From: Fragilaria crotonensis
Lineage: Eukaryota; Bacillariophyta; Fragilariophyceae; Fragilariales; Fragilariaceae
Assembly: GCA_022925895.1 (NCBI GenBank)
Contig: JAKSYS010000398.1
Coordinates: forward strand, 1-56,671
Length of the DNA: 56,671 nt
Direction of reading: 5' to 3'
Shown: positions 3,623-47,719 of the stretch, piece after piece
Numbering within the stretch: the stretch's first letter is position 1
Layout of the letters: each line of letters opens with the position of its first letter
Program-made: the position numbers and the translations under genes
The notes under the pieces: model-generated
The model's database searches: none
The model's input: the letters and a program-made list of their open reading frames with translations, nothing else
What the model was told of the DNA's origin: nothing

Positions 3623-4073
3623 GAAACCACTCGGAGTATACATGTCAATTGTCAATACCTCTATATATTATTATAGGGTAGCGCAGCCCTGGTCTACCGT
3701 CTACCGTTAGTGTTTTACCGTTTGGTTTTCAACCTTTACGGAAAATCACGAGTGACAGTGTGCCCTCTACTGTACACAGTAAAACCACTCGAGTGTTTAG
3801 ATTTGACGATTTTGACCAAATTCATCATCATGTGATATCAATTTAATCACAACCCCCCCCATCACAACGAACGTAGAAACAAGGGGTCTGGAGCTTGTGC
3901 GACTTGACGTGGCGTTTGTTCGCGAATTCAAGACTGATGCAAGATTCGACACGCAACAAACTGCTAACAAGATTTCATTTTTCGCACATATTAGCTGGCG
4001 ACAGGCGACTGACAGCGAGGATACTTCCCAAACCCAACAACATTATTATCATACTCGACATCCTGCCTCCAAC

Positions 4074-6207
4074 ATGGTAAATGAAGATCAAGACAAAGCT
4101 ATAGTAACAACAGTGGGAGTTGTCGACAGTCAAGGGAGCGCGTCTACGAAAGATACTTCTGCCAGTATGATGGTGCAACCGCCAACCTCTGCGAACATGC
4201 TATCTTCGGTTCAAAGAAGCATGCAGGAATATAAGCTTCATGGTAAACAAGCTGCAATCAATCGAGCTTTCGAAGAGCTCGACGTCTCCAAGGATGGCTG
4301 CTTGGATCGACAAGAGATTACTGCCTTTATGGGTGAAGCAGCCAAGGTGATCAAGTTGGATGTTCCCGAGACGGTCATATCGGACGCTGTCGATGCATTG
4401 ATGGAGGACGTCGGGGCGAGCCTCACAAAGCATATTTCAAAGGAACAGTTTGATCAGCTCTTTGAGCGCCATCCAGATTTGCTCAAGTGCTTTGATGATG
4501 AAGTTTCTGTCGCTGTTATGCAGAGGAGAATTTCAACTAGTGAGCGCACTTTGGAAGAGGTACAGGAGGAAGAAAGAGAGAACCTTGAAGTCTGGGAGAA
4601 TATGCACGCACGATGGAAGAGTGAGAAGGTGCTCATTGTTTGGACCTGTCTTTACGTGGCAGCCAACATAATTGCCTTCACGTACAAGGGGATTACCTAC
4701 GCGAATCGAGAGGAGGCTTTGAATGTCTTTGGCGACTGCATCATTGTAGCCCGTGGATCGGCTCAATGCTTAAACCTGAACTGCTGCCTCATTCTTTTGC
4801 CTGTTTGTCGTCATTTCTTGACGAGACTTCGAGCCACCAGACTTCGTTTCTTCTTTCCGTTCGACACTCTGCTGGAGTCTCACATCTACTTTGGCATTGC
4901 GATCTTGCTCTTCACAACATTGCATGTCTCAGCACACGTCTGCGACTTTTATCGCTTTGCACGCGCAGACGAAACCGACATTGTCGCACTTTTTGGCGAC
5001 AGTTTGGGAGAGATTCCAGATGGCATTCAAGAACGTTGGACGTTGATGCTCGGTACTACGGCTGGAATCACTGGTATTATCATGCTGGTGTGCTTGCTCG
5101 TAGCGTACGCCTTCACTCTTTGTCGGCATAAGAAGTTCAATTCGTTCTGGTATACTCATCATTTGCTTATCGTTATGTTGATTGCCCTCTGCTTTCACGG
5201 AACCGGGAATTTGTTGGAGCCTTTCCAATCAGTCTACTGGATCATGGTGCCTTTTGCGCTATACATCATACCTCGGTTTCTTCGTGAGACACCGTTGACC
5301 GAGTGTAAAGTTTTAGACGTTGCCATGAAGAAAGGAAACGTGGTCGGTATCAAGTTGCAGCGCCCCAAGTATTGGGACAATGCAGTGCAGGCTGGCATGT
5401 ACGGCTTCATTCAAGTTACCAAGGTGTCGCGTTTGGAGTGGCATCCCTTCACGCTGACTTCGGCACCCTGCGAGGATTTTATCGAATTCCACTTTGCGCG
5501 TGTGGGCGATTGGACGGCCAAGGTGCATGACCTGCTGGAAGATTTGGTGTCGTCCAAGGCAGACGAGGAGGGTGCGGGACAAATCATGACAACCACAACG
5601 GCACACCAGAGGCACCAGCATTGACACCACCGAAGTGGTCATCAAGGTGGAAGGACCTATCGGTGCGTCATCACAGGGATTCACGGACTACCCCATTCTC
5701 GTTCTGGTTGGAGCTGGTATCGGGGTGACGCCCATGATTAGCGTGTTGAAACAACTGTTGGTGACCCCAGGGAAGATGAAGCGCGTTTTCTTGTACTGGA
5801 CCGTCCGCGACCGTTCGGCGTTCAGAGTGGTTCGCAAGCTTAATGGATGATATCTTCGAGAGTGATAAAAGAATGTGATTCAAGTGCGTCACTTTTTGAC
5901 TTCAATGAAGGAGGATGATCGCGACATTGGTGCAGTCCTTCTGCACCATGCGACCGTGCCAGGCATCAAATCTAATTTCGACCTTATCTTAGGCCAATAC
6001 AACCATCACCAGGTGGAAGTCGGGCGACCGAACTGGGAGGATGAGCTTGAATCCGTAAAGGTTGACGCGAATGAGCTCGGGCATGGCGAATGCGGGGTCT
6101 TCCTTTGCGGTCCCAAAGTGATGGCTGACGACGTTGCTAGCACATGTTTTGCCCTTTCGAAGAAAGATCCGAGCTTTCACTTCTACTTCACAAAGGAAAC
6201 GTTTTAG
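4074..6207 (+). CDS. EF-hand NADPH oxidase / ferric reductase-type flavocytochrome (frame-broken)
   Basis: A membrane flavocytochrome that should move electrons from NADPH through FAD and two haems to an acceptor across a membrane (oxygen or ferric iron). The first in-frame ATG, at 4074, is taken as start. An EF-hand loop (DVSKDGCLDRQE, about residues 70-81) precedes several hydrophobic segments. Two haem-ligand histidine pairs are visible, in HIYFGIAILLFTTLH and in THHLLIVMLIALCFH. Next come the FAD-binding HPFTLTSAP, the NADPH-binding GAGIGVTPM, a C-terminal FLCGPKVM and the end FYFTKETF typical of NOX/RBOH proteins. The frame changes near 5600, near 5820 and near 5866; the last two compensate each other and restore a NOX-like segment reading EWFASLMDD. 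This is either assembly indels or a recent pseudogene. EF-hand regulation by calcium is inferred from the family. Confidence 0.85.
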
Positions 6208-21244: not shown

Positions 21245-24200
21245 ATGGTGACTCGCACTGTGAGGTACCTGAAACATCCAAAGCAGCATGATTCCCCTTC
21301 TCCGTCACCGGTGGTCACAGCAACTGATGATGGTGAAGTGGACAACAGTGGCGGCACGACGAGCGACACTGATCATCGCCGCAGCAACGTAGGTGGATCT
21401 TCATCATCATCATCATCACTGGAACGGCCAAGCAAGAAAGCAAAACGTCATCATCACAAGAACAATGGCAGCGATGATTGTACCAATGACAATCATCCTT
21501 GTGGAGAAACATCACCAATCGTGACTCCATCGTTACGAAAGAATATGAGACAAATTGGTGTGGACACTTCCCAATGTGGTTCATCAGCAAGGTGGTGACG
21601 ATGCAATGAACAACCAGGTCGTCGAAACAAATGCATCCGCAGGTAGGATTCAAGGTGGTGCGATGGATGACGGAGAACAGGATTCCCAGTCTCATGTTAG
21701 TAGTCTCTTTTCAGATGACGATGGAGATCAGGGTGATGCACATTCAGTGGCAACGCAAGAAGAAATCAATGATAATGATGACGACGGCGACGACGACAAC
21801 TCTTTGCCTTCTGGCTTGTTTACAAACATTGAAGATGAGGGAGACAAAAATGGCGACAAGGTTCAGATTAATGAACCTACCTTGCAACGAGTTACTATAT
21901 CCCACATAATGCAGAAGCAACAGATTATGAACGATGGTGACTCGCATGACGAAGGGTTGACAAGATCCCAGAAAATTCAGAAGCAAGCGACGGTGAATGA
22001 TGATGATGATGATGATGATGACTCGTCTGGTTTGTTTACGAGGAGTGGAGATGAAGGAGGCGATGGAGTGAAAAGATCCCAGAAAAATCAGAACCAGACG
22101 ACGAAAAATGATGATGACTCATCTGGTTTGCTTACGAACAGGGAAGATGATGAAGAGGAGAAATCACAGAAGATGCAGAAAGAGGAGACTGTCAACGATG
22201 ACGACTCATCCGGCTTGTCTTCAGAGGGTGAAGAAGAAGGAAGTCATAGAGTGAAAACATCCCTGAAGATGCGGAAACAAACGATTATGAATGCTCTTGA
22301 CTCATCCGGCTTGTCTACGAAAAGTGATGACGAAGGATGCCTAGGCGAAGGGGTGAAAAGAACACACAAGATACAGAAACGGATGACAGTCAACGATGAT
22401 GACTGGTCTGGCTTGTTTTCAAAGGGCGACGATGAAGGAGAAGAAAAATTGACAAAACCCCAGAAGATACAGAAACAAGCGATTGTGAACGATGATGACT
22501 CGTCTGGCTTGTTTTCGAAGAGTGACGATGAAGGAGGCTTAGGCGAAGGGGTGGAAAGATCACACAAGATGCAGAACAAGACGACTGTGAACGATGATGA
22601 CTCGTCTGGCTTGTTTTCGAAGAGTGAAGATGAAGGGTGCTTACGCGAAGGTGTGAAAACATCGCACATGATGCAGAAAAAGACGACTGTCAACGATGAT
22701 GAGTCGTCTGGCTTGTTTTCGAAGAGTGAAGATGAAGTAGACGAAGGGATGGCAGGATCCCAGATGGTCCAGAATCAGACAAATGTGAGAGATGATGACT
22801 CGTCTGGCTTGTTTTCGAAGAGTGAAGATGAAGGATGCTTAAGCGAAGGGGAGAAAAGATCCCAGACGATGCCGAAAAAGATGACTGTCAGCGATGATGA
22901 CTCGTCTGGCTTGTTTTCGAAGAGTGACGATGATGACGACGAAGGAGTGACAACATTCCAGAAGATGATGAAACAGACGAATGTGTACGACGATGACTCA
23001 TCTGGAATATTTTCGAAGAGCGACGAGGAGGACGAAAAAATCCAGGCCAATGAATGCCTTTCGATGCCAGTGACCGGAATTCAACCGAGGCAAGCGCAGG
23101 AGACTGCAAGCGATGATGATTCATGTGGCTTGTTCTCAAGAATTGAAGTCAAAGAAGAAGTCCCGGCCGAGGAAATGCCTGTGGTTAGAGTGACAAGGTC
23201 CAGAATCAGGATAAAGGAGGAAGCTTTTCTGAATGATCATTTAAGGGATTCGTTTCCCAATGAAACCACGCATAGAGAGGAACCATCCTTGTGTGATACT
23301 GGCCATGGTGTGGTGTTCCCTGCCCCCATCAAAAAACAATCGAGAGGAAGCCTTACCCGATTTGAACCCTTGGAAGCAAGTCGTGAGACGCTCCTGATGT
23401 TGAGTGAAAGCACAGACCAGTTTTTTCTTCGGCATGTGTTTGATGGAAAGCTTATCATCAAAACAATCAAACTTCCATCGAAGAAGCCCCTTGACCAAAG
23501 CTTTCGATTTGCAGGCCGCACGTATTCAATCGTAGCAGTAAAGCATGAAAAGCGCGACTCCAAGCAACCAATATGGAAGGATTCAATCCATGGATCTAAA
23601 GGTTATGCCAAAGCCTTTTATGTCGCGATGGATCATTGTGAACTTCAAAAGGCATTAAACCAGCTCGGAGACTTCGCTGCCTTGCAACCACCATGCAAGG
23701 CAGCAAGTCGGCTTGAGATGATGGTAAGCCCAGCAAGCACCGACAAAGCGGGATTCCCCCGCGTATGGCTCAGGAATATTGATGACTTTGAACTTATCGA
23801 GGAGAACCACCACGTGGGTTGTGGCTTCATCCCGGTCGAATACCTTGTTCAATTGGTTGGAACCGCTGACATTGCAGCTATACAGGTTCGTATTTATTCT
23901 AAGGCCCTCGGACACTTCAAGGGAATGCTAATGGCCAAGAACCGCATCACTCGGATCCAATTGCCACACTCAATGCTGAAAGTGAGGCCATCACCCGAAA
24001 AAACAAGGACAGATACAGATGTGTTCGTTCTTTGCAATGGAGTTTCCCCTTCTAATTCTAGCCGGATGTTGAACCGACACCTCAACCCAAATCTAGCCAA
24101 CCCACCACCGAGTGCAATAAAGGATCTTCGCCCGATGTCACCCATGATTAAGAGCCTCATGGTTCTCGTAGGTGTTCCAAGTGAGGTTGTGGAAAAGTTC

Positions 24201-25477
24201 AGCAAAGATGCTAGTCAGGACTGGAATCGCAAACACTGGGCGTTTTGTGTTGGAGTGGCAGATCCAACAGGATGCCTTCCGGCAGGTTCTATCTTTGTCA
24301 CTGGAGTCGGTGTTGGCTATGACACTGCCAACAACAAGCACCAGATGTTTATTACTCGATGCCCCTGCACGGAACCCAGTGATGTGAAGGTGCTCCCAGT
24401 GGTAAGCCATAAGCCTGCCAGCATGCCTGTCGAAGACTGGAAACATTTATGTTCGATTAGTTTTGGTTTGGTGATTTTTGCCACCCCAAATGGCGCTGCC
24501 GGGTGTTCTTTGCCGGAAAGCATAGCCGATGGTGATCTGGATGGCGACCCGTACTTCTTGTGTTGGGATCAAGAGATTTTGCACATATCTCCAGAACGAC
24601 TCATGAACACTAATGACGATGTCGAGGATGCCCAAGATGACCTTATTGGTCAAGATGTGACAACCATAAAAGATGGAAAGCTTCTTCATGGTATAACGAT
24701 CCGTCAAGACGATCAAGGTGGCTACCTCTGTGACTTCCTGGCCCACGGTCGATGGTCGTTAACCAAGAGCGAGGTCCTCGGCGATCGTGACTTTATCGTG
24801 AAGATCCATGATCACCGAGGTCTTGGTGTGAAAGCCGAGATCCTAATTGAATGGCAGTTCGCGAGTACCCCCACGTGGGAACGTATCCATGGTTTTCGTA
24901 ATGATGAGGCGAACGCACAAGTTGTTGCGGAGTATGCCCGGGTGCAAGACTTGCTGGGGACTCGTGGATGGGAATGGACCAAAGATTTCATCAGACCTTC
25001 AGAATTGGCAGAAATACTAGAGCACGATGAGCGCGACGGGATTTGCAAGTCCGTGTGATTTGGGATCATGGTGAAGTTGACTGGGAGTCAGTGTTGGAAT
25101 TGCGCGAGAACGAGGTGCAGGAAAACCGAGAAAAACTTGCAAGGTATGCCCAAGAGAAAGATCTTTTACGATGTGAAGGCTGGACTTGGGCGGAAAGCTA
25201 TTTGCAAGGGCTATCACAAAAATGGTTGGATCCTGTGCAGTGTTACTTGGTTGACACAGATCGTCTGGTGGAGCGCAGTCGCCTTACTGAGGCTCTTCAT
25301 AACGCTTACTGCAAGAGCATAAATCACGGCAGTTCTGAGCAGGACATCAAGGCCTTGGGGCGTGCATTCAAACAATCGATCGATATTTCGAAGCATGGAG
25401 GAATGGTTGACCTTCCTTTTTACTTAAGAAAGCAAGTTCGAGGAACGAAACTACAGAAGTTTCTGCGGTTGGTGTGA
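21245..25477 (+). CDS. Eukaryotic RNA-dependent RNA polymerase with DDSSGLF repeats and two chromo-like modules
   Basis: About 1410 residues. Start is ATG 21245. One frame change near 21590 joins the serine-rich N-terminus (with basic KKAKRHHHK) to the long frame, and one near 25050 joins the C-terminus. From about 21800 to 23130 there are about 13 acidic repeats of the form DDDSSGLFSKSDDEG. The polymerase core follows. IQVRIYSKALGHFKGMLMAK and IQLPHSMLKVRPS match the RDR blocks QiR.gG.KGvl and lRpSM.KF. VADPTGCLPAGSIFV and the active-site ADGDLDGDPYFLCWD (aspartates at 24534-24548) match the catalytic loop of RDR/QDE-1 enzymes. After it come two modules, AEILIEWQFASTPTWERIHG with AEYARVQDLLGTRGWEW and VRVIWDHGEVDWESVLEL with ARYAQEKDLLRCEGWTW. 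These resemble chromo-type modules of copia-like retroelements. The end, LGRAFKQSIDISKHGGMVDL, matches the RDR C-terminal block. Function by family: dsRNA synthesis for silencing. Confidence 0.85.
21790..23140 (+). repeat. Coding repeats, about 13 copies of a DDSSGLF unit
   Basis: Units of roughly 85-120 bases each encode N/VDDDSSGLFSKSDDEG followed by a basic linker containing SQKMQKQ or similar. Copies near 22490-22930 are almost identical at the DNA level (GATGATGACTCGTCTGGCTT recurs), which points to recent expansion; outer copies are more diverged. The repeat acid patches could be kinase sites or docking motifs. Confidence 0.8.
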
Positions 25478-26164: not shown

Positions 26165-29100
26165 CTAGTGCAATGGGGGGTCAGGGCCATGTCGATCATG
26201 AACAAGCATCAGCCCACAGATCGTACCTGGTAGATATCCCGATGCTATATTACCAAGTTTGACAGCATACTTGACCACAGGTACCATACGCACCGCTTTC
26301 GTTGCCGTACCATACTGAAAGGACATAGAATACGTCATTCGCTGAATCTCCTCCTTTGTTAAAGGTGTGCAATTCTCACCATTTGACCAGGGCCGCCAGA
26401 CAAAGTTTTCGTTGAGAATCTGGTAAGCAAGATGAGTTAGTACCGCAGCAGCAAGTGCCCACACAAAATAGAAACTTACGACTCGGTAAAAGATAGGTTT
26501 TGAGGTGCCCTTGAGACCGCCATGAGCTGTCAGCAGGAAATCAAACCCTGAGGAGCTCGGGTTCGAAAACACAAGTGGTATTGGATCATCAGGTATCCTA
26601 TCGATTTCGGGCTGCGGGGCTGAAAGGTTCAAGCCATCCAAGAAAGGAGTAACCGTATGGTCCAAACAAGTACCGCTTGGCACGTTTAGGACAGAATTCC
26701 GTTTGTTCATCACTTCCTGCGCTGGAACAATGCGAATGTTATGTTGGGATAGTGCCACGATGTAAGTGATGATTGGGGTGCAAAATGTGCAGCCATTCCC
26801 TTGGCACTTCCTCGCGTTTTCACAGGCTCCTCCATGACGAGCCATGCGAATATCGTAGAAAGCCTTTCGAAGCGTGGCCACCTCGCTGTTCAGAACGAGA
26901 TCGAAATTACCCTCAGATGAACCATTCCGGTAGACCACAATTCTTGATGGCATCTTGTCATCGTTGTGCAACAAATATTGGGTTGCCAATGTCTAGTCAC
27001 ACGCAGGGTTAGGTTTTCACAACACACGACGCCAACAAATTTAAATTCATGATGACCCACCTTGGACAATGCATACATAGGTACGGGCTCCACAACGCCC
27101 GCAGAGTCTTGAACGCGAAGATCAAGTGCCAGTTGAATTGTACCTGACACATCACGAGAAGCATGAGATGCATCGCCTTGATTCTCTAACGAAACTGCTC
27201 CAGTAACGATCGTCACTCCCTCTGTCCCCGCAGCTGCATTTGTTGTTAGAATAATAACTTTCGGTTCGAGAGTCAACGGATTTGGCTCGTACCTCTGGTG
27301 AGACTTAAACCCATCACCATGGTCGGAGTCTGTTCAAGCCATGGAACGCGACCCTCTTTGCGTAAAACCTGGATATCCCAAGCGCGAGCTTTGTTGCTTT
27401 TGGAGAAGAGCTTCGTGTTCACTTTGATGGCAATGTTACTGCAGCTGCATTTTTTACAAGGTTGTGAGTCATGGTGAGGTCGGCTGCTGACGAACCTGCA
27501 ATAAAGATCAACTTACTATTGATCGGGGCTTCGTTGACTCGTGAACTTGGAATGTACAAAGCATTGGGATTGAACATTGCACTCGATGTTCGAGACGAGC
27601 TTGACAAAGTGGTAAACCTGGGCATTGTCAGTGGGAAGGCGAACGAAAACAAGCGAAGGACATTCAATCTGGAATCCCTTCACAACATGGTAGGCCTTTA
27701 ACGTCGACACGTTCGCCTGCGGTATGTATTCTCCATTTTCAAGCATGTACACAAATTCGCCAGAGAAGTACTCCGAAACCCACTTCCCGTTTCCTTCCCT
27801 CCTTTCAATGGGAACTCCTGAAATTCGCAAAACGGTGAGCAGCGGGACTAGGAATCAAATATTCAAGCTGTCCTTTTTCTCGCACCTTTACCGATTGGGC
27901 CCCGCTTGTCATCGCCTCTTGCTATTGGGAATCGTAAGTCAAAAAGTTCCACTGCCGTATCCCCAACTACTGCCTTGATTCTAGCAGGCACTGGACCATC
28001 TGATTCTGGGAAAGTGACCCAGTGCGTCTCACCAGCAACATCAATCGGCAGTATCGCCTCGAAGGCATCGGCATCGATATGTCTCACAATCGCTAGGGAC
28101 GTATTCCCGTCAACTGCAGAGACGATGTTGGTCAAAAAGCCAAGACCGCTGTTCGATTGGCCTCGTAAAAAATGGTTCTTCGACTTTTCGATTGCATCTC
28201 TGAAAACCCGATTTATCTGTCGAAGCCCAAGTTGACTGAGTGCATATTCGCACAACGGATACAAACGACGACGTACTTACAGTTTCCTTCTCCCTTCCAG
28301 AAGGAAGATGTTCAGCTACGATGACCTCCAGAATTGCTTGTTCAACGTCAACGTTCCGAGGCATCTCAATGCCATGCGATGCCATAATCTCAAACAATCT
28401 TATAAAAGCAGAGCATCTGTTTTCTCCGACAACATTAGCAAAGTCTACGATAGCGAATGAGCTCATAAACGCAGGTTTCGAGAACTTGACTTCCGCAAGA
28501 TTCCAGGAGCCATCGTTGGGTACTTTCTCGTTATTCAGAAACCTCATAACAGGCTGAGGGAGCACTGACGCCTCGAGTTTTGCCGGTTCGAGGTCTGTTG
28601 TAAGGTTCAACTGCTGCAGTAGCATACCCAATTCTGGTCCACTTTGCATCTTCACTTCCTCGACAATTCGCTTCACATGCTGTAGGTGCTCCATTCGTCT
28701 TGTCGATGCGAAGTGATCGTTGAACTCGAGTACATCGGGATTGTGATCAACTTCACGCACCTTGCTCCACGCCTGGAAGAAGAACTCAAGTGGAAGCTTC
28801 TCTATGATAGGTTCATCCTTCTTGGTCTCGACTTTAACCTCTTCTCCCTGTACGACAGGGAGCAGTTCTTTAGTCCTCCTTGGGCGCGTCTTTTTGCCGC
28901 CCTTGATGATGAAAAGTGGCATCTTGGGGAAACGAAGTTTAATCTTGTGGTGGATTTCGAAGTACTCTGCGACTGTAACCATACGAGCATTCTCTCCCGG
29001 CGGAGCACCTCGAGGTTTGTATTCAAACATCGCGGATGGGTCTTCTCCATTCCAGACAATGCTATCAATCCTCACATTTCGGTACACTCTAGTGTTGAAC

Positions 29101-30782
29101 TTATTTCTCGACTTTATCTTTCGATCAATGTCGGCCTCTGACTTGCCTTCTTCCAGTAGCTTCTGTCGAAAGGCTAGAAAGGTGTAAGAAAAAAATTCGT
29201 CTCTCACTTCACAATTTGAACGTGCGGCCTCACCATTTTCTCTTGCTTCATCTGGTGGCTTGGTGTACTTCATATTCAATGTCAACTTTCTAAGCGCTTT
29301 CTCAATCTCGCCCCTCTGGTGGTCCGGAATGACATCATGCAGATTATCAACACGGACGCCAGCTATCGCTTTCTGTCTCTCGATAAGGACCGGGATAGGC
29401 CCATTCTGAGGGTGGATCTCTCGATTGAACCAATCAAGGCCCGCATCCATGGTCACAAACACGTTGCCGTTAGAACAAAATCTAACAGACTGAGAAAGTC
29501 CAATGTAAGGGAATTCAGATTTCTTCGGGATGATGCGTCTAGGGAGTGAGACAGTGTGTAAGGCAAACCAAAACAGACGCAGAATTTGTAACTCACGTCG
29601 CGGTATTTGCCTGCCAATCTGCCAAGGATACCATCGAATTGGTTTGGATTAGGATCCAGATAGAAAAATCTGGGTGACTTGCCATTGCCATACACCTTGA
29701 GCTTTGAGACCAACATGGAGTTCTTCAATGCAACTTCCATTGCCATTTGCATGGCATACATAGAATCAACTGTGTTGGTGCCTTGCACAAATCCAACCTC
29801 TTGGAATCGAACAATAAAATGCTTATTTTCGATTCTTGCGATCAACTCTGTTAGAACTGGAATGTTTGAACGAAAATCATATTGAAGTGGCAAACCTACC
29901 GATCTGCATCTGGATCACCATCATCGCACGACTTCTTCACTACAACCTTATAATCATAGTACAATCCCTTCTCAGCGACCTGGTGTCCACCAGTGTCGAC
30001 TTGTATGTCAGCTGGACCATAGCGTCCCATCGCGCCTTTTCGTTCATCTGCCGTGCCACCCATATTCGCAGCTTGGGCTACTTCGTCATCGGCTCCGTTT
30101 GCTTCAAAGAGTTGGCCCACAGAAATCGCTAATTTGCTACCATCGGTCTTTTGGAAGGGCATTGTCAGCTAATTTGCCTGTGTCAAGAGCCTGGTCGAAC
30201 ACTGTGGCTTGCACTTACCCAAAATACTTTGCGTTCACCAAACAATCTCTGTTGAAGCTTGCACAGGACACGACGGCTGATCGTATTTGATCCGTCGTCC
30301 ATGTCAACAGTTTTCGAGTCACCCTCGCGGCTTTGTCGAGGCACAAGCACATATTGCCACGGTTCCAAAAACTTTCCCTCCGCATCTTTCTTCTTCCTCA
30401 GGAGCGCATCGAAGATAGTGACGTCGTACTTGTACCACTTCTGTTGCAAGAAATAGTTCAATGTTGCGTCGGGGTTCGACAATTTAAATTGGTTCGTCAT
30501 CACTTGAATAGTCTCTGGTCGGCGAAAGTCGCCCCACTTACTACCTCCGCCTTGTCCTCTCCCGCCTCCTCCGTATCCACCACCGCCACCTCCACGGCCA
30601 AACCCACCACCGCCTCCTCTTCCTCCTCGGCCTTGATAACTGCCCAATCCTCCACCTCCTCCTCTCCCTTGATAACTGCCCAATCCTCCTCCACTTCCTT
30701 GATAACTGCCCAATCCTCCTCCATCACCACCACCAAAACGGGACCGCTTAGGATCGCGGTCATTGTTGCCGTAGTAGCTCAT
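26165..30782 (-). CDS. Argonaute with RGG N-terminus and altered slicer residues
   Basis: A multi-exon Argonaute. Exon ends read by eye: 30782-30219, 30168-29597, 29538-28281, 28216-27892, 27817-27517, about 27485-27293, 27233-27061, 26992-26480, 26419-26165. Order of domains: SYQGRGGGG-type repeats; N domain (RRPETIQVMTNQFKLSN, YKYDVTIFDALL); linker GLSQSVRFCSNGNVFVTMDA; PAZ (MVTVAEYFEIHHKIKLRFPK, KLPLEFF); L2 (NDGSWNLAEVKFSKPAF); an extra segment of about 130 residues; MID (PSLVFVRLPTDNAQVYHFVK, QSQCF); PIWI (NIAIKVNTKLFSKSNKARAW, VVYRNGSSEGNF, NVPSGTCLDHTVTPF, GGLKGTSKPIFYRV). Slicer positions: GAD of other Argonautes is GLS (serine codon 27303-27305), YRD is YRN (26924-26926), and the YAH histidine is valine (26261-26263). 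Cleavage is therefore unlikely. Four indel-type frame changes (near 29893, 29520, 27500 and 27440) are needed. Guide-RNA binding and silencing without slicing is inferred. Confidence 0.88.
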
Positions 30783-31865: not shown

Positions 31866-33008
31866 TTACACCCAAAAGTGAGCAGGAATACCTTTCTTGC
31901 GAAGGTTTTGAAAGAGATTCAGAGACTGTTGCACACTTCCCTTCATGATGGTTTTCCAGAGATGCGCAATCTCAGCCATCTTCACATGATGTTCAAAATA
32001 GAAGTGGTCCACTAAATTGTGAAGTTGAGGATTATTGAGTAACTGTCGAGCCAACGGAACTTCAACGCTTCTCGTGTCTACATCAAGCTTGATGATTATC
32101 AAATCATCTTGATTGTAGTTCTCAAGAAGCAAGTTCCAGGGATTATTCCGACTGGAAACGTCTGGACTCACACCGACATTGATCCAGTGATACGCAGCGA
32201 GCAATTCAAGCGGGACCTTGTCAAAGACCATTTGACTATCACTTTTCTTAATTTCAAAGGCATAAAAGTGATCAAAGGGAAAGCCAAACTTGCGATAGAG
32301 GGCAGCAAGCTTCAAGGCTGGCGACATGTGTTTGCCCCCATGAAAATTTAGTGACGCGCCCAAATCAAAGAAGACAATACGCGACGTCTTCCTGAGTTGT
32401 TTGCACATGGCACCAAAGTCATGGATTAAGTAATCCAAATTTAAGAAATCTTCGGGATCCTTGCAGAAGTTGGGGTGGCGCATGGGTGTAAAGAGCGGTT
32501 CAATGTAACCTGACGAAGAATACGAGAGCTGCCTACTTTCATTGAAGAATCCTTGTAGAATACCGTTTTCAGGATCCAGTTCGGCTCTCTTGCATACTTC
32601 ATCACGGTTTGTTTCATCATGAGTAAATAGAGTTCTGAGATCTGGAATGCTCTCAAACGTTGCAATCTTTTCATAGTAGTTCTTCAGCTCATTGTTTAAT
32701 GTCTGAGCCGAGTTGTACATTGGGTTTTCTTTATTATTCCATATCTCGCATCCAGAAGCCATGTCCGTTCGGTTCTCCCCAGCTTTGTCGAATCCCAGTG
32801 CAATAGCATTGTCCACGAGGTATTGCTCAAGCGACGCTGGTTGATACTCGGAGGTCGGGCCAGCGCTTATTCTTGCAGTTCCGGTCTTCGTCTTGCCAAG
32901 GTCTGCACAGTTCTGATTTATGCTCCCGATGATGGTAAGTGTTGATGTCAACACCAAGACCAAGACAACCGCGATTTGCAAAACTCTAGTAGAGACATTC
33001 GAAATCAT
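31866..33008 (-). CDS. FkbM-type methyltransferase-like type II membrane protein
   Basis: An intronless 380-residue frame from ATG 33008. Residues about 8-30 form one hydrophobic segment (LQIAVVLVLVLTSTLTIIG) after a short polar start, so a signal anchor in the secretory pathway is expected. The C-terminal half has FFDLGASLNFHGG, a Rossmann-type glycine-rich motif, then FDHFYAFE, NVGVSP and IIIKLDVDTRSVEVPLARQL, which follow the order of FkbM-family methyltransferases (motifs around the cofactor and the KID/E block). No catalytic partner is known. It lies between Argonaute and RecQ-RdRP, but its membrane anchor makes a role in silencing unlikely. An alternative is a nucleotide-sugar-related enzyme. 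Moderately sure of the fold. Confidence 0.6.
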   Translation of the reverse strand: MISNVSTRVLQIAVVLVLVLTSTLTIIGSINQNCADLGKTKTGTARISAGPTSEYQPASLEQYLVDNAIALGFDKAGENRTDMASGCEIWNNKENPMYNSAQTLNNELKNYYEKIATFESIPDLRTLFTHDETNRDEVCKRAELDPENGILQGFFNESRQLSYSSSGYIEPLFTPMRHPNFCKDPEDFLNLDYLIHDFGAMCKQLRKTSRIVFFDLGASLNFHGGKHMSPALKLAALYRKFGFPFDHFYAFEIKKSDSQMVFDKVPLELLAAYHWINVGVSPDVSSRNNPWNLLLENYNQDDLIIIKLDVDTRSVEVPLARQLLNNPQLHNLVDHFYFEHHVKMAEIAHLWKTIMKGSVQQSLNLFQNLRKKGIPAHFWV

Positions 33009-33559
33009 TGTTCAGGTCAACAATGGATGGCAAGGCAAGCGAAAAAAGTGTCTGCACGCTCTCTCGCTTCGGTTCAATGCATTGTCACTCTTCACGCTGG
33101 TTGTACTGGTTCGATAGGTATATGGTAGCACATGGTACATGTACGGGTAACCTATTTGTACATAGAGTGCCGTTAAATAAATTTGAATCGATATCGCACT
33201 CTCTATGACATATGTCATACATAACGGATGGAACTGATGGGGATCGTTCGTACCGGGTACAGTCGCGTAACTTAGACGCAGAAACATACGAGGACGCCTT
33301 TTACTGGGACCCTGGTACTCCAGTACAGTACGGAGCCACCAATCCTCTCGTCGATTCCATCGACTTCACTTGCCAAGATCGCTTCAAAATCCGAGATCCT
33401 GTGCGCAACTGGGATATGCATCATCATCAGTGTGGCGTTGAGCAAGTATCTTCCACCTTGCACTTGATCGTGTCCTTAGCCGTATACGTACAAGTTCCTG
33501 GTAATATCCATTTTATTGCGCAAGGGTTGCACCTGCCTTGTTGATTACAGCGAAATATC
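33009..33559. other. Divergent promoter region
   Basis: Between the methyltransferase-like gene (minus) and RecQ-RdRP (plus). An open frame of 110 codons at 33212-33544 shows no domain. The region should contain both promoters; no motif was identified with confidence. Confidence 0.4.
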
Positions 33560-36500
33560 ATGTCTGACAAGAAGGATAACAGCGATAAACGCAACAAACC
33601 CTATGTTGACATTACTCCAAAGTCCTTTGCTGCTTTTATGCGTCAACCAATCAGTGGTCTAGATATCAAGAAGCGTGCGAATTCTGTCAAACGCAGCGAT
33701 TCATTTGGGAATGTCAGCAAGAATAAGAAATCTAGAGTGGACACGCCAAAAACAAAGACAGTTGGCGACACCAATGTTGTTCCGGCAACACCAATGGAGC
33801 TGGTTCAGTCCGCGACGCCTTCCATCTTGCGCGTCACTCGAAAACACGCCGCTACTACGGTACAAGTTACGAAACCAAAAGGTGCAACCAAAGCACCACG
33901 AGAAATGGCCAAATTCCCAAATCCTTCGCAATCAGATGTACTGTCATACCTCTGTCAAGATTTCGGACTGCAACTAATCGACAGCAAGAATGGTGACAAT
34001 GTTAGTACTGCCGTCTCATGCCGTTGGGAAGGACAGGAATTTCCGTCCATTGATGCCTTGAGAACACACTTGTGTCGAACGGGACTGGTCGCGCCGAGTA
34101 AAGAGTGGTTTCATAAGAATATGCAACGTGCAGATCGGCTTCGTTACTACGGTGGAGGTACAGATTTGTACGTTCCGGAAACAAAAAAGGCAAGAATGAT
34201 TGCCGATTGGATTCGTCTGGATATTGTCCCCGTCGCCCATCGCAAATTCGCGTCACTCGAACGGTTGGCAAAAAAGGAGGTTCAGACCGTCCTTCGAAAG
34301 GTCGGAGTCCGCGCAACCATGGGCAACTTTGAAATGGACGGCGAGGAGCTGCAATGGAATGAAGTCGAACGGAAATTGGCAACCTTTGGCCTTTCGCAGC
34401 AATTGTGGGAACATCCAGGTGCTACAGAGACTGAAAAGCTGTCGGTGTTGCTTTATTATGTTGACTATGAGGTCATGTGAGTCCAACTTGTTCGCAATAC
34501 TGCGAGCGTTTATGTGAGCAAAAATGGGACTAACCTTTTTCTTGCACCACTCCAAGTGTATTGCAACGTGAATTGACATATATGCCAAGCATGGATGCGG
34601 AGCTGCCTGCCACGACGCGTCCTAGGAGGCGGGTTGTTTTGCAGTCACAACAGGCCAAGGCGCCGGCTCCGCCAAAGTCAATGAACATCGAGGTCAATTC
34701 CAATCCACCGGACAAGACGGTTGAGGAAGATATTGTGTTGGACCAATGGAAAGCACCGGATGAGCGGCAGGTTCCCGACGACTTTCCATTCTTTAGCGAC
34801 AATGAGGAGGGGAAGGAGGACATGCCTGCCGCAGGCTTGCGCCGACCGCTTGAGCCATTTCCCCCGAAGCGCAAAAAAATGAGACGAAAATCGACGTTTT
34901 GCCGCAGAAAGCTCGAGGCCGATGAATTCGTTGGACGCTGCCTGCTGACTTCGCCAGACTTTTGGGATACGCTTGGACAAATTAGACCAAAATCGAGCGA
35001 TTTTGCCTGGGGCAAGCCCATTGGTTACCGACGCCACATGGGTCGAGCGTATTTCGACTCCTTTGTGCTCTTTGGTAAACGGATTCAAGTTGGTAGCTTT
35101 GTGAAAATGGACGAACAATACTATAAGATCATTTCCACGTTCCAAGCAACTCGGTCGTTTATTGGTCGTTGGAGCACAAGAACCGATGAGCTGCAGAACC
35201 GTGGATACGCCTACGTTGAATTGGCACCAATTAAACGCGATACCGAAGGACGTTATTTTCTTTTTCGATCCAACGATTGGAACCCTGGCCACATTGAGGG
35301 AATTCCAACCTCTCTATTTCACCCCAACGGCGATTCACGCGAGCTGGAATGCGTTGCTGTCACATGCTCTGGCGTCTGGATCCGTTCAAGGGTTCATCGA
35401 CCATTCACAGCCGAACAGCAAGCTTTTGTGACAGAGAACGATGCTTTCGCCTTGACCTCCCGGTTCGCCCTTGATGCGTGGCCAGAACTCACCAACGCAA
35501 AGTGTGTGATTCTTTACGCGAATGAACGGGAGTTTAAACTTGCAACTGATGAGAAGTACACGATATTCGACAGTGACGATAGCGATGATTTTGAAGAGTC
35601 GTCGAGTCAACGTATCAAACAAGGAAAATTTAACTGGAACGAAGAACTTGAATGCGACTTAATTGATAACGATCTTGAACCATCGATCATGTTTAGAGGA
35701 AATCTCCTTCCCGAAAAGAAGGTGGATTCCGAACACCTGTATGAAATCCTTATGAAAATAAGTCCGTTGTTGGATGCTTGCGAAGCATGCGATGAATCCC
35801 TGAAGGACTCAGTGTCTGCTCTTAGAAAGGAGCTATTCTTGCGCACCGCGACATCGAGGCTTGATGATTTTTTTACCCTGATTCGTGTCCCTGCAAAATG
35901 GGGTGGCGGCATTGTGAAACCTGAGTATGCAAAGGTGGTGGGATACAGCCGATACAAGAGCAAGATCCAACAGCTAGCATGCGAGCATGTTGCGAATCGC
36001 GAGGACACTGTCATGATTGCTCCTTGTGGGTCGGGGAAAAGCATGGCCTTTGTGCATGCGGCTCTAAACTCAGGCGGAAAGGTTAACATTGTGATTGAGC
36101 CCCTCAACGCAATCATTAAGAGCCAGCTTGTGGAGTTGCAATACTTGTCAGGGTACATTGATATAGAACAGCTCTATAGTGAAGATGACGCCAGAGAGCA
36201 TCGAGTTCTCAGCAGCTACAACAGAATGCAAATGATAATTAATGATACTAAGGTGAGTCCTATTGAGTTGCAATCGGGAAAGCTCAGCCTGGCAAAATTT
36301 CTCACCGATTTCACTAAAGCAGGATGGCTGGATGTCGAAGCCCCTGCTTCTTTTCGCCACGCCAGAACTAATTGAACAAAGATTGCCACAGTTGAAGGTC
36401 CTAGCTGCAGAAGGTTTCCTCTCCAGTGTTACCGTGGACGAGATGGACATGATTGATCGAAGTCGTGGGGGCTTTCGTGGTGTCTATACCAATCTGGCAG

Positions 36501-39500
36501 AAAAACTTCGTCTCCACTGCGAAGGAGCCAAGTTCATTTTTCTCTCAGGCACCATCACAACCCGCGGGTTGGTGAGTTTGTTGCCATCTGTATCGATAGC
36601 TCAACAACTCCCTGAAGTTACGAAACCATTGCTTGTGATCCACGAACGCGCCCTGGCAGATTCCCTTTCCTTTCATGTCGAACGCAAAGTCAACGATGAA
36701 CAGGTAGGTCTCGAGATTTGTGATGCGGCGGTTGGTGTTGTCCCTACGCATTAATGCTTATCGTGCATGCAGGTAGCTGAACGTATTGTGTGGTGGATCA
36801 GAAACGCCAAGGGCCCGGTGAAATGTTTGTGCTACTGCCTCACGAAACCTAGATGTCGAAAAATTGCCCAACTGCTTGAAGACAGGGGGGTAACTTCAAT
36901 GCCAGTGACGAGTGAAGAGAAATCAGCCTTCAGTGAAGTGTTACAGTCCTTTCGAAAGGGACGCATTTCCGTTCTATGCTGCACAGGAGTCTTGGGAAGA
37001 GGATTCCATGTTGATGACATTCGCTTTGTCTTCCACGCTTCAGTTCCATTGGACCTCACGGAGTACATTCAGCAAACGGGGAGGGCAGGCCGAGATGGTA
37101 AGCGAGCTCGATGCATCTTGTTCTACAGAGCGCAAGACTTCGCCACTGTTCGCAGAATCAAAATTCGGCCCGACGACCCGGACGTCGTTCGAGAATCTGT
37201 CGATGCGGATATTGCCGAGGTGGCTTCGTACGCCATGACAGACAAGTGTCGGTATTCTCAATTGGCATCCTCTGCTACACTCAAGCAATGCAGGCCATCA
37301 GACCAACGATGCAATAAGGATGCTCCTTGCGACATTTGTGTTAACATGAATTCTCAAGTATTTGACATTGGAATGAGTCATGTGTTCGATTCAATAAGCG
37401 ACCACACTGCGTGGGAGTTCGATACGAACCAGCCTTCACTGAGCGATGATCTACTCCAACTCTTTCTCAATACGAAGATTCTCGAAAAGAAGGGTCCTAG
37501 GCAGCTGCAGGCAGGCTTAAATTTCCATCATGTCCATGAGCAGCTGACGACAGGAGCTGTTGGATTCTTTGTCAAACATAAGAAAGGAGATATCGAGCAT
37601 GACTCGTCGAGGTCGTTGGAAGAGAATTACTCAATGGATTGTCCGAAAGTAAAGATTTTTGATTACGAGGAGCTGCATGATCAGGCACTTTTTGGGAACA
37701 CAAACGAAGTGGATGACTCAATCGATCCCCTAGATCGTTTGCGAGTTCCATTTCTGGTCCGATTTGAATCCGAAAGGTAAGTCACACTTCCGATTCCAAG
37801 GTTATGCATCCACGCCAATAAGGATCTATCTCTCAATTCGTTGATGTTAAACAGAGCTCGGCAGTCCAATGCAGAGTGCGAATCGAAGATCATGGACCAC
37901 TTTGGGTCCGAAGTTGTTGGTTCTCTCGATTGCTTGGATGCCTGTAGATTCTTGAAAGGTCTACTGCCCCGTCGTGAAGCTGGGCGATACGAATCTGCGC
38001 TTCCTCGGTTGCCGGCGTCTGAGAATCAACTTTCATTTGACGAATTTAACAGTGGCTCAGGATTGTATTTTCATGGCGAGTTAGACGCCAACAATGTCAT
38101 TCGTTTGTTACCTCCAGAGCGGGCCAACAGTCGAAGGATATTTAGAAAGTTTGGCAGCGATCGTTTCCTTCACGTAAAGGTCGCTGGAGATCTGCCCGAC
38201 GAGCGCGTGATGAAAAAGTTCACCCAGAAAAACGTGTTATCCGGACGGACCTACGCGTACTTATGGTGTAAGGCGCAGAAGTCTCCCCAATGCTTCGTTC
38301 TGTTTGCTGAACGCGGTTTCGGGATTACCGAGGAGTTATCCGCTGAGCAAGTTCTAGACTGGTGTATTCCGCGAGAGCTCAATCCGGACTTAACAGTTGC
38401 GAAGGAGCTCAAGCGAATGAAGCTCGCGTTTTCAAAAACTACCCCGTCCTTTGTTCTGCCAGAAAATTCAGTTGAGCTGATTGATGACATTTTAGGGGCG
38501 AGAGGAACACTGATGACAGACGGTGCTGGGCTCTTGTCAAGGGGTGCTCTTAACGAAGTATGGAGATGCTACTCCGGTGGATCAACGTTGTGCCCATTTT
38601 CATCGTTTCAAGGCCGTCTTGGTGGCTTTAAGGGGATGTGGGTACTGGATGATTCCCTACCAGGGATTCAGATCAAATGTCGACGTTCCCAATTGAAATT
38701 CAACGTTCCAATGAAATCGTTGGCATCAAGTACCAATACGTTTCACACGAAGGAAGATTCGCTGTACGATACGGTCGAGGTGAACAGTTGGGATGAGAAA
38801 CCCGAGAAAGGTTTTTTGGTAAGTATCGGTCGTTACCATTAGAGCACAAGTTCATGTTTAATGAAGGTCTAACCTTTGTGACGAACACACAGTCTGTCCG
38901 GCTGGTCCAGATTCTGGAACGCCGAGGTGTCAGTCTTGATTATTTCCTTCGCTGCGCGGATCATGGCCTGTGCTGGCTCGACGAGCTTGACAGTAATCTG
39001 CCATCCAGTCAAGCCCACTTTTATGACGAGATTCGTAGGAGGCACAGCAATATTGTCGCCATGAATGAGAAGGAGGAGCAGGCCAATGATGACATACTCT
39101 TCCATATGGCCTCTGCGAAACTTGACCCTAGCGAGCCGTATTATGCAGCCCAAAGGCGAAATTTTGTGAAGAAAACCGCTGACAGTATGCGGAACAAGGT
39201 GAGGATCTCGTGCTTTAACTTATCCATTCCGTTGCCTGACGTTACTAACCCATGGAGCCGCACGCGAAGGCCCGATATCCGTTGAAGGATTCATGGCACG
39301 TACGTATGCTTCCCGATCATATGCAACTTCTGAAGGAAGGGGAGGCCTTTGTTGCCCTGCCACATGAAGCGCACGGATCTCTACGTGAAGCAAAGGAGGT
39401 GCTTGCCTTTCGAAATCCATCCTACTTTGATGGGGATTTAAGGAAGATGACCTTGGTTCACTACGACGATTTGCTCCTGCGAGCTGATGAGGAGGATAGA

Positions 39501-40535
39501 AAACCTGGCAGGGTAGGGCGAGAATGGGTCTCCAAATTTCAAGGTTTTTTCAGTAATTTGATATCCGCAATCGTACTTAGCACCGTTGGTTCTGAGAGCG
39601 AGGCCGATCGAATGAGTGGGGGTGATTTTGATGGTGACAAGGCGTGGATATGCTTTGATCGCGATCTCGTCGAACAAGTGGCTGCGTCTGAACCCGCAAC
39701 AAGGCCTGATCCTCCACCGAAAGATCGTGCCGAACACCGGCTCGTCGTTGATGCAAGTGTGATACATCGAATAAAGTTCGCTCGTCATTTCAAGTACCAC
39801 CAGCGGCAACTTGGATTCCTGGCCAATACTCTCGACTTTGCCATGGACATGTTCGACGATTTCAGCACGAGCCCTATAATCGATGACATTGCACGGCAAG
39901 CATTTCTGCAAGTGGATCATCCTTATCAACTTTGCGCGCCCAAATCGGTTACCATGGACTATTTGAATTTGCAGAAGCAACCACATTGGAGCCTGAACCA
40001 AACGCTTCGTGCTGGGGAGGAACACGAGAAGGCCTACTGCTCTCAGAAAGCGATGGGAATTCTGTGGGATCACGTTGAAACAAAGATTGCAAGGGCTGTT
40101 TCGCACGGCAACGGCAACGAAGTTCCAAATGCGCATATACTGGAGCTGGCAGATACAGCATGTACTCGATTGGATTTTCCGGCATTGAAGTCAAAGATGC
40201 GAAAGGCTGTCGTTGACTACAATTTGGTATTAAAGGAACTGATGAGCTCAAAGCTGGTTTCGGTAGATAAAGTTGCCGAAAGGACTCATGAACTTGCGCA
40301 AGCTGAAAGAGCGAGACTCATTATTGACTCATTTGATTCAGAAGATGACAGAACTCTTGCAGCTGCTGTCCTCTACAAGGAGTGTGGTGATTCAAAGGGG
40401 TTTGCCTGGAAGGTCGCGAGAGATTACTTGATTTTAATCGTTGTTCGAGCTCAAAATAGGGGGAAATCTGCCATGCCAATCATAATGGATTCTGAAATCG
40501 ACAAACTGGCATTTGGGCGCAAGCAAAATAAATGA
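33560..40535 (+). CDS. RecQ-type helicase fused to a eukaryotic RNA-dependent RNA polymerase
   Basis: Seven exons: 33560-34476, 34557-36252, 36323-36703, 36773-37776, 37855-38818, 38893-39198, 39270-40535. All phases agree and give 2177 residues with no frame correction. The N-terminal 750 residues are unassigned, with a possible BAH-like part (RIQVGSFVKMDEQYYKIIST). Helicase: Walker A APCGSGKS (Lys about 800), FATPELIEQ, motif II DEMD (910-913), FLSGTITTR, then FRKGRISVLCCTGVLGRGFH and QQTGRAGRDGKRARC (1098 on), and a RecQ-like cysteine cluster CRPSDQRCNKDAPCDIC. Polymerase: MTDGAGLLSRGALNEV, FSSFQGRLGGFKGMWVL, IQIKCRRSQLKF, then MSGGDFDGDKAWICFD with the catalytic DFDGD at 1875-1879 (39624-39638). 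Neurospora uses separate RecQ (QDE-3) and RdRP (QDE-1) proteins in quelling; here both are one polypeptide. Coupled unwinding and dsRNA synthesis is inferred. The acceptor of the last exon could also be at 39258. Confidence 0.92.
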
Positions 40536-40702
40536 CTCACCATCAGTACTACGTCTCAATGTCAGGACTACTTAAAGGTGATGCCACCTCTCTATAGCTG
40601 CCTACTGATCAACGTTACGAACTCCATTATACTAGTCGTCTTACAAGGCTCACATTTCAGTGTGGACAGCGGTAAAAAGCTGTGCAAGGCATAAAGTACG
40701 CC

Positions 40703-45005: not shown

Positions 45006-46354
45006 TCAATTCTTTGGCTTGGCCGCTCCGGGACCGGTGGGAATGATTTCTCCTGCCTCTTCCAACACGGACGCAAAGTAGATAATCGTCGCCTCGAGAC
45101 CTTGTTCCACTGACACTTTAGGTTCCCATCCCAATTCGCGCTTGGCGGTGGTAATATCGGGTTGACGTTGGGTCGGATCGTCCGTCGTGGCAGGCAAGAA
45201 TACAATTTCGGATTGTTCGGACTTGGTCATTTCCTTAATTTTGACGGCAAAATTTTTGATGGAGTACTCGTCAGGATTTCCCAAATTGACCGGTAGATCG
45301 TAGGGGCCGTTCATGAGTTTGTGCAATCCCTCCACCAAATCGCTAACATACTGGAACGATCGTGTCTGAGAGCCGTCACCATAAACGGTCAAGTTCATTC
45401 CCTGCAAGCTCTGGATAATAAAATTGGACACGACTCGTCCATCGTTGGGATGCATGCGAGGTCCGAATGTGTTGAAAATACGCGCGACGCGGACATCGAC
45501 TTGATTCTGATCGCGATAGGCGTACATCATGGTCTCGGCGACGCGTTTGCCTTCATCGTAACAGGCACGAGGACCAATGGTGTTGACGTTGCCCCAATAC
45601 GATTCGGGTTGGGGATGAACTTCAGGATCTCCATAGATTTCCGATGTGCTGGTGAGCAACATGCGAGCCTTGACGCGTTTGGCCAAACCCAACATGTGGA
45701 GGGTACCAATCGTCGAGGTTTTTATGGTCTTGACTGGATTGTACTGATAATGAGGTGGAGAGGCGGGGCACGCGAGGTGGTAGATCTGGTCAACTTCCTG
45801 CATAGGTGTTGGACGTGATGGAAAATGGAATGCGCACATGGTTAGCGAGGTTCAAGAGAGACGATGTTGATACGCGATTACAAGAGCGAAAATGAAATGT
45901 CCAAGTGCAAGTAACTTGTCAAGAGGAAGCAGACTCCAGTACAGTAGCAGGTATTACTGGAAGTACTTACCAAACGAATGGGCTCGGTAATATCGTGAAC
46001 CACGAGCGTAAAGTTAGGGTGCTGGAGCCAATGTTCAATGTTCTTCTTGGATCCAGTGAAGAAATTGTCCACAACAGTCACTTCATGTCCCTCCATCATT
46101 AACTTATCCGTCAAATGCGATCCCACGAATCCCGCACCTCCAGTGATAAGAATCTTCAAGCGTTTGTGGTCGGGAAGCGTTCCCGTATACATGAGATTGG
46201 GAGTGCGACGAGTGGGAAGGGAATGAAGTGCCAACGTATCGCGATCATTGACCAATCGACGGGCGGACTCGGATAGCGGATCTTCGACGTTGCCTGTTTT
46301 CAAGCGCTTGGCGTAAGGCGTGTGCATCTCGTGATCGTCATTGCTCGTGCTCAT
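45006..46354 (-). CDS. UXS: UDP-glucuronic acid decarboxylase (UDP-xylose synthase)
   Basis: Converts UDP-glucuronate to UDP-xylose for cell-wall or secreted glycans. Two exons (46354-45971 and 45797-45006) with a 173-nt phase-0 intron give 391 residues. The NAD-binding motif GGAGFVGS is at about residues 72-79. Exon 2 has [31 protein letters not shown] and the catalytic YDEGK (Tyr 208, Lys 212), followed by [20 protein letters not shown] and [10 protein letters not shown], all highly typical of UXS. No membrane anchor is seen from this start, so a cytosolic form is expected. The frame is also open upstream to ATG 46546, which would add 64 residues without a hydrophobic anchor. Extended short-chain dehydrogenase family; assignment is firm. 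Confidence 0.92.
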
Positions 46355-47719
46355 GATTGATGAAAGGCGGTGGGAGCTGTACGGATGTATCTTGGAGCGC
46401 AAGGAGCGAATTGAGTATGCTGGTGTAGATCGAAAGACTGATGGAGATGCGCTGATGATGAGACACAGATCCGCGGATGACTGCGTGTGTGCAGGTTGTG
46501 TTTTGAGTTTTGAGAAAGTCATCCTGTTATTATTCTCCCCGGTCATCCCGCAGTCGGGAAACCCGGCGGGTCATTGCATATTCCAATGACCGAGTCCAGG
46601 TCCACTCAAATATCAAGTCAATCATAATTTATGTAGCTCACCGTTTGAACGTCATCTACCTCTTCAATACATCCGTCCCTCGTCGCGGCGGTCACCAACA
46701 AATCGAAAATCTGTAAAGAGCATGTCTTATCGTGGGGGGTACATCCCTGATTTTTCGATTTTTTTTCGAAAAAAGCATTTCTTATGAGGGGGGGTACATC
46801 GAATTGGGGGGGGTCAGATGATGTACCTTTTTGATGACCTAGGGTCACATTTTCAAACCCCCCCTCATGTACCCGGGGTCCGGGGTCAGTACTGTATCAT
46901 TGCTCCAGTGGGAATATACAGTGATCTTTTGTGGCTTTCACTGCATGTTTAATACCACAAAACGTACAAATACCTGATCCTCGTGTTTTCGTCGAACGTT
47001 GGAGCAGTTGTGTATGCATACTCGCATTATGGGATATCTCAACAATAGCCCTGCAATCGAAACGCATCCTGCACCCTATGATGACACCTCAAAAGGATGC
47101 ACGCCCTCCCAGCATATATATGCAATGTGCCCATACTCCTATCACTCCCCCACTATTAAGTACAAGTAGGAGACTCACAATCAGCATTGTGCGAATGCCA
47201 ACAATGATGGATACAAATAGCAACTTGCAGTGTATCACATAGTGTGCACGTGTGCCCAGTCACGCCGTTGTTGCTCCAGTAATCGGAAATCCGCGCGGTG
47301 GTTCAGTACACAGTACTACAGTACACGATAAAGATTGCCAATTTTTCCATTTTTTTTGAAGGGTACATCAGATCCGATTAGGTTTCACCAATTTGACGTC
47401 AGCACCCACGTCACAGTAATAAACTACAGTCAGTCCTCCTGTAGAAGTTTTTTGAAGACATCGGAAATTTGAATGGCTGACAAAACACGGAATCTTTGTT
47501 GTTGACTTCTGTTGGCGCTTTTCCTAACGCGCATGTCAACCCTTTGTCATGCCAGGAAGATAACTGCTACTTATCTCCTTCTATCAGTGATTCATGTGTT
47601 TCCCTTGTTTTGAATCACTCGAACTTACATTACTTTGTATTCGATTACAACCTAGGGTTGCAAATCTCCTTGAAGACAAGTACACTTTTCTTCTTAATCA
47701 ACACCAACAGAACTATTTT

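Follow-up and report, generated by a model that had tools for sequence, protein, structure and literature searches.

A predicted Fragilaria crotonensis protein joining a RecQ-like helicase to an RNA-dependent RNA polymerase

We identified a nuclear gene predicted to encode a RecQ-like helicase and a eukaryotic RNA-dependent RNA polymerase (RdRP) in a single protein, within a 56,671-nucleotide contig of the diatom Fragilaria crotonensis (JAKSYS010000398.1, assembly GCA_022925895.1; the whole contig is hereafter the window). Judged from sequence, the two parts are fused, both retain conserved catalytic motifs and are under purifying selection, the junction between them is conserved, and the gene is close to an Argonaute gene. 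The comparisons below indicate that the fusion is neither an assembly chimera nor an error of the gene model, and that it represents an old family rather than a one-off. The initial annotation of this DNA knew of no described RecQ-RdRP fusion, and we likewise found none in the open-access literature, a scope outside which most subscription journals fall. Our survey suggests that the new element is the RecQ-like helicase-RdRP fusion with a putative BAH-like domain, fusions of RdRPs to helicases of another type being already known; also new are RNase H-RdRP fusions of diatoms that belong to the RdRP clade of this protein, and, upstream of the fusion, a second RdRP and the only Argonaute detected in the genome.

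Gene model and conservation of the fusion

The gene comprises seven exons (33560-40535, forward strand) that splice to one open frame, with six GT-AG introns of 69-80 nt and a protein of 2177 amino acids in the preferred model. We tried 96 combinations of splice sites, among which the listed ones that are open throughout encode 2171 to 2188 amino acids and differ at three introns with alternative in-frame sites. The sites 36323, 38818/38893 and 39270 were preferred because the spliced protein then continues across the joins as its homologs do (RNK joined to ARYPL at the start of exon 7). These combinations and the spliced translation confirmed the seven exons and agreeing frame of the initial annotation, and all the motifs that it quoted recur in the spliced frame: APCGSGKS at residue 794, DEMD at 910, QQTGRAGRDG at 1098, QGRLGGFKG at 1585 and GGDFDGD at 1877 (numbered on a 2181-amino acid version of the protein), with a cysteine cluster (CR..QL...C...C...CDIC) at about residues 1157-1187. 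Pfam profiles matched DEAD (1.5e-13), Helicase_C (5e-14) and RdRP (1.1e-77), and no other Pfam family was listed up to an E-value of 10.

Exon 4 is open without a stop from the Helicase_C domain, via the zinc cysteines, to the motif PFLVRFE. We assign this motif to the RdRP side because RNase H-RdRP proteins that lack a helicase carry PFLVRFE (P0019) or PFICQFE (P0020), and the helicase-RdRP junction is therefore inside one conserved exon. If left unspliced, the exon 4 donor creates an in-frame stop (FESER-stop), so that an intron-retained, helicase-only isoform is possible. The same stop might be read as the end of a helicase gene followed by a separate RdRP gene, or the two parts might be two loci joined in assembly; we consider either extremely improbable, given that the RdRP-side motif is already within exon 4, that the homologs P0001-P0003 pass through the donor point in one protein (P0003 as the open reading frame of a transcript), and that both a haplotig and a paralog keep the helicase-RdRP order. 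We thus rejected the two-gene or chimeric reading on the basis of the haplotig, the paralog, the five fused homologs and the exon common to both halves.

The homologs were found in a protein search with residues 700-2181, in which five of the 18 matches were the same fusion (P0001-P0005), meeting the suggestion that the architecture be sought elsewhere. DEAD, Helicase_C and RdRP domains are all present in P0001, P0002, P0003 and P0005, and P0004 is partial; P0003 is a complete open reading frame of an MMETSP transcript, and P0005, named 'hypothetical protein', is from the diatom Epithemia clementina. Among the best 120 of 2279 matches in a helicase-profile search, we additionally identified 17 close fragments (45-90% identity), 14 with Helicase_C. 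These 14 exon fragments all carry GR[AG]GRD, and in all of them motif VI and the start of the RdRP side fall within one open frame; CDxC is found in 13/14, PFLxRFE in 12/14 (SFVVRFE in the other two), and an end of the form '..ER', as in window exon 4, in 13/14. Among the viral contigs searched for relatives of P0001 none was confirmed (5 pattern matches).

Within the 62.1 Mb assembly (881 contigs, the window being C335), the haplotig C239 carries the same locus in the same order, with matching blocks 97.6-100% identical and 99.0% identity over 33401-40700. The exons of its copy of the fusion show small gaps at 11 positions, each of them a deletion in C239. We favour sequence noise as their source, because the Argonaute stretch of this haplotig has deletions too (12 gap positions, all deletions); decay of the C239 allele may be the alternative, as the gene at 31.9-33.0 kb has 0 gap positions. 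Between haplotypes, pN/pS was 0.25 for the fusion overall (17 synonymous and 15 non-synonymous changes) and 0.48 for the RdRP part alone, the latter from 8 changes, too few to rely on.

A diverged paralog on C199 (L012 4587-9932, L013 2508-2824) also places the helicase before the RdRP, with 62-76% amino acid identity by block and a one-base frame difference within the RdRP part; upstream of it, no counterpart of fusion residues 1-711 was found. For the C199 copy against that of the window, dS is near 0.9, and omega is 0.175 in the helicase (452 codons), 0.383 in the linker (119) and 0.141 in the RdRP (846), the first and last values indicating that both halves are under purifying selection. 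C199 also bears a partial copy of the gene at window 31866-33011 (78% over 322 bases). Elsewhere, C34:82392-83190 (reverse strand) holds an RdRP-only fragment, 87% like the catalytic part of the fusion over 208 residues and with broken frames, which is probably a pseudogene.

Helicase, BAH-like and polymerase parts

The initial annotation described a complete RecQ-type helicase, and much of that description stands. TIGR00614 was the best family in the five proteins scanned (1.6e-45 to 2.4e-60), and by hhalign the fusion helicase aligned with a BLM homolog at 3.6e-57 over 418 columns. Motif VI takes the RecQ form, QQTGRAGRDG in the window and GR[AG]GRD in 5/5 fusions, and zinc-subdomain cysteines follow RecA2, with the zinc-site residues CR..L and CDxC likewise in 5/5. 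Other features depart from RecQ: the scores of 155.8 to 204.7 bits in the five proteins are below the NCBIfam RecQ cut-off of 219.8, no Pfam match to RQC or HRDC was found in the fusion protein, and motif II, which is DExH in RecQ, reads DEMD in the window, DEFD in the four other aligned fusions and, by eye, DEVD in the fragments P0139, P0142 and P0166. In a structure model, in which the fold of the linker and RQC region is of low confidence, the zinc part is succeeded by helices and two strands (pLDDT about 50-64). The helicase half is thus RecQ-like, as supported by its profile, its fold, motif VI and the zinc cysteines, and not RecQ in the strict sense.

An origin of the helicase from the Dicer of this genome was rejected, the fusion helicase matching the Dicer helicase on C544 at 1.5e-6 over only 70 columns by hhalign against the 418 columns for RecQ, a comparison that concerns Dicer helicases alone, since the available part of PMC4791657 sets the oomycete and Dictyostelium RDR helicases apart from those of Dicer. 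In a helicase tree whose non-fusion members were 28 hand-picked search matches (P0018, which is without motif VI, was left out), the fusion helicases were divergent and on long branches. Such divergence, and scores under the RecQ cut-off, would suit a scaffold without motor activity, retained for binding alone; the Walker A motif, the motif II acids, SAT/SGT, LGRG and the motif VI arginines are nonetheless present in 5/5 fusions, and with a helicase omega of 0.175 they make a scaffold very unlikely.

Moderate evidence places a BAH-like (histone-reader) domain before the helicase, at about residues 451-627; this domain was overlooked in the initial annotation.

The polymerase half is a QDE-1-like eukaryotic RdRP: it matches Pfam PF05183 at 262.6 bits against a cut-off of 23.8, and contains GGDFDGD. 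The nearest solved structure is QDE-1 (5fsw, 5.1e-20), the best match in PDB, followed by chains named RdRP (4e-17; 2e-5) and RDR2 (0.0025). With P0003 as query, a protein search retrieved 102 RdRP proteins (P0003 itself among them), including four RecQ fusions (P0001-P0004), two RNase H-RdRP fusions (P0019, P0020) and one RNase III-RdRP fusion (P0107), with no further helicase domains in the other rows; as this search missed P0005, absence from its 102 proteins proves nothing. P0019 is from Thalassiosira minuscula (MMETSP0737; RVT_3 9e-26, RNase_H 4e-9). P0107 (1697 amino acids), a fusion according to its precomputed Pfam list, perhaps unites double-stranded RNA (dsRNA) synthesis and dicing in one protein.

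RdRP trees, with outgroup rows hand-picked from the protein-search matches, resolved the RecQ and RNase H fusions into one clade (support 100/100). The 33-row tree places P0005 apart from the RNase H group (94/84), and the RecQ fusions form one group (83/81) in a 25-row tree that omits the second RdRP of the window, P0016, P0026, P0049, P0050, P0085, P0107 and P0113 (eight rows, five of them long branches). Neither grouping was flagged as supported, and we make no claim on the order inside the clade or that RNase H replaced RecQ.

RNA interference genes around the fusion

An Argonaute gene is located between a second, divergent RdRP and the fusion (Table 1), forming a cluster of RNA interference (RNAi) genes whose closeness fits an RNAi role for the fusion. 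Besides its haplotig copy, this was the only Piwi/Argonaute locus found in the genome, in a search of six frames without introns in which only the best candidates were scored. The second RdRP has an end branch of 3.88 in the 33-row tree, an N-terminus of DDDSSGLFSKSDDEG-like repeats, and a frame that differs by 37 gap positions from one haplotype to the other. Two Dicer-like genes were identified elsewhere: C544:1-5247 (reverse strand), with DEAD, Helicase_C and Dicer_dimer domains and a pair of RNase III domains, and C658:219930-225089 (forward strand), with two RNase III domains, a weak PAZ and no helicase match. C437 bears a lone RNase III match. By eye, the window may also contain a UDP-sugar dehydratase/decarboxylase-like gene (45006-46570, reverse strand) and an EF-hand NADPH-oxidase-like gene (3816-5624, forward strand).

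Table 1. Features of the fusion gene and its RNAi neighbours, in window positions
Feature	Position	Strand	Description
Second, divergent RdRP	21549..25058	+	repetitive acidic N-terminus, DLDGD
Argonaute	26165..29648	-	PAZ and Piwi above cut-offs, Mid just under; two long open frames
Exon 1	33560..34476	+	basic N-terminus, residues 1-305; without family match
Exon 2	34557..36252	+	putative BAH-like domain, then the opening half of RecA1 with Walker A APCGSGKS
Putative BAH-like domain	34990..35520	+	about residues 451-627
RecQ-like helicase unit	35848..37348, introns included	+	residues about 737-1190
Exon 3	36323..36703	+	remaining RecA1 (motif II DEMD, motif III SGT); acceptor alternatives 36320, 36341
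Exon 4	36773..37776	+	RecA2, motif VI QQTGRAGRDG, zinc cysteines, linker, PFLVRFE (start of RdRP part)
Exon 5	37855..38818	+	N-terminal part of RdRP, QGRLGGFKG; alternative donor/acceptor 38810/38867
Pfam RdRP (PF05183) span	38099..40076	+	profile match
Exon 6	38893..39198	+	RdRP
Exon 7	39270..40535	+	catalytic RdRP part GGDFDGD, C-terminus, stop; alternative start 39258

Possible mechanism and comparison with known systems

We infer, with moderate confidence, that the fusion protein acts as a chromatin-tethered dsRNA synthase on RNA:DNA hybrids or opened DNA; chromatin binding, this substrate, a direct coupling of unwinding to dsRNA synthesis and a role in silencing would all belong to such an activity. 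The BAH-like part would hold the protein on chromatin bearing a particular histone mark, and the helicase would strip nascent RNA off RNA:DNA hybrids, or open DNA, where there are repeats or forks have stalled. The RdRP, held in cis, would convert the freed RNA to dsRNA, which would feed the Dicers and the single detected Argonaute of this genome. RNA:DNA hybrids are suggested as the common substrate by the RecQ-like helicase here and the RNase H in Thalassiosira. More tentatively, the BAH-like domain may recognise a histone mark found at repeats or replication origins, the helicase pull nascent RNA from R-loops and the RdRP copy it to dsRNA in cis, RNase H standing in for the motor in another diatom lineage; R-loop processing and RNAi amplification would then be the work of one enzyme. 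Weak stretches in the ORC1 match behind the BAH-like assignment slightly lower our confidence in both readings.

Motif II (DE[MFV]D), which differs from that of RecQ, suits a helicase that works on RNA, clearing structured templates or displacing product strands, as those of the Dictyostelium and oomycete helicase-RDRs may, with DNA uninvolved. The order of helicase then RdRP agrees with this, being that of the oomycete, Dictyostelium, Hydra and Nematostella proteins (available part of PMC4791657), but the RecQ-like profile and fold, unlike those of the genome's own Dicer helicase, the zinc-site residues in 5/5 fusions, and a BAH-like domain suggestive of chromatin make it distinctly improbable. 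Somewhat less unlikely is an RdRP part that acts first as a DNA-dependent RNA polymerase: its single-stranded DNA template would be made by the RecQ-like part at damaged or repetitive DNA, in the way proposed for QDE-3 and QDE-1, and hybrids would count only as by-products. Its nearest solved relative, QDE-1, is a strong DNA-dependent polymerase on single-stranded DNA, and needs QDE-3 to meet RPA (PMC2950127, available part); the RNase H borne by RdRPs of the same clade, however, would supply no single-stranded DNA.

The preferred reading, of a synthase tethered to chromatin, bears on the questions of how RdRPs pick aberrant transcripts and what RecQ does in quelling. One RdRP clade fused to RecQ-like or RNase H domains, with a probable histone reader, argues that dsRNA synthesis begins at RNA:DNA hybrids on chromatin, and the fusion offers a single protein for testing such a start. 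Silencing in this alga may thus begin directly on chromatin via one protein. Diatoms rank among the major primary producers, and little is known of their silencing machinery.

The available parts of three papers on diatom RNAi (PMC3155517, PMC3145265, PMC4247016) mention RdRPs and no fusion to RecQ or BAH. P0019 and P0020 share the RdRP clade of the fusion, and have RNase H where the window protein has BAH-like and RecQ-like parts. With BLM, RECQ1 and RECQ5 the fusion shares the helicase core, with RecA2 and the zinc subdomain, and it differs from them in its motif II, the lack of a detected RQC or HRDC, and the attached RdRP.

Helicase-RDR fusions have been described in peronosporomycete oomycetes, Dictyostelium, Hydra and Nematostella, and have the same domain order as the window protein. 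Their helicases are DEAD-box proteins with GxGKT and DE[C/A]H (DEVH in Dictyostelium), in a clade of their own apart from Dicer helicases; the fusion has GxGKS, DE[MFV]D, a RecQ profile and zinc cysteines, a separation drawn from printed motifs, and the description of helicase-RDRs mentions no RecQ or zinc site (all from the available part of PMC4791657). None of the known helicase-RDR sequences surfaced in our protein searches with the fusion or P0003. Dicers without a helicase are reported in Dictyostelium, Hydra and Nematostella, the oomycete DCL1 being otherwise (PMC4791657, same part); the Fragilaria genome does not follow the helicase-less pattern, one Dicer (C544) having DEAD and Helicase_C and the other (C658) no helicase match.

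A RecQ helicase was found with EhRdRP1 and EhAgo2-2 in Entamoeba, as a hit of low confidence (available part of PMC8546589). In Neurospora, as the initial annotation stated and the available part of PMC2950127 agrees, QDE-3 (RecQ) and QDE-1 (an RNA- and DNA-dependent RNA polymerase) are separate yet cooperating proteins that make dsRNA in the quelling and qiRNA (QDE-2-interacting RNA) pathway. According to the same part of that paper, the products of QDE-1 on DNA templates are mostly DNA/RNA hybrids, which RPA prevents, the QDE-1-RPA interaction requires QDE-3, and BLM is cited as an unwinder of such hybrids. Neurospora and the window thus both pair a RecQ-type helicase with a QDE-1-type RdRP, in one pathway but two genes in Neurospora, and in one predicted polypeptide with a putative BAH-like domain here.
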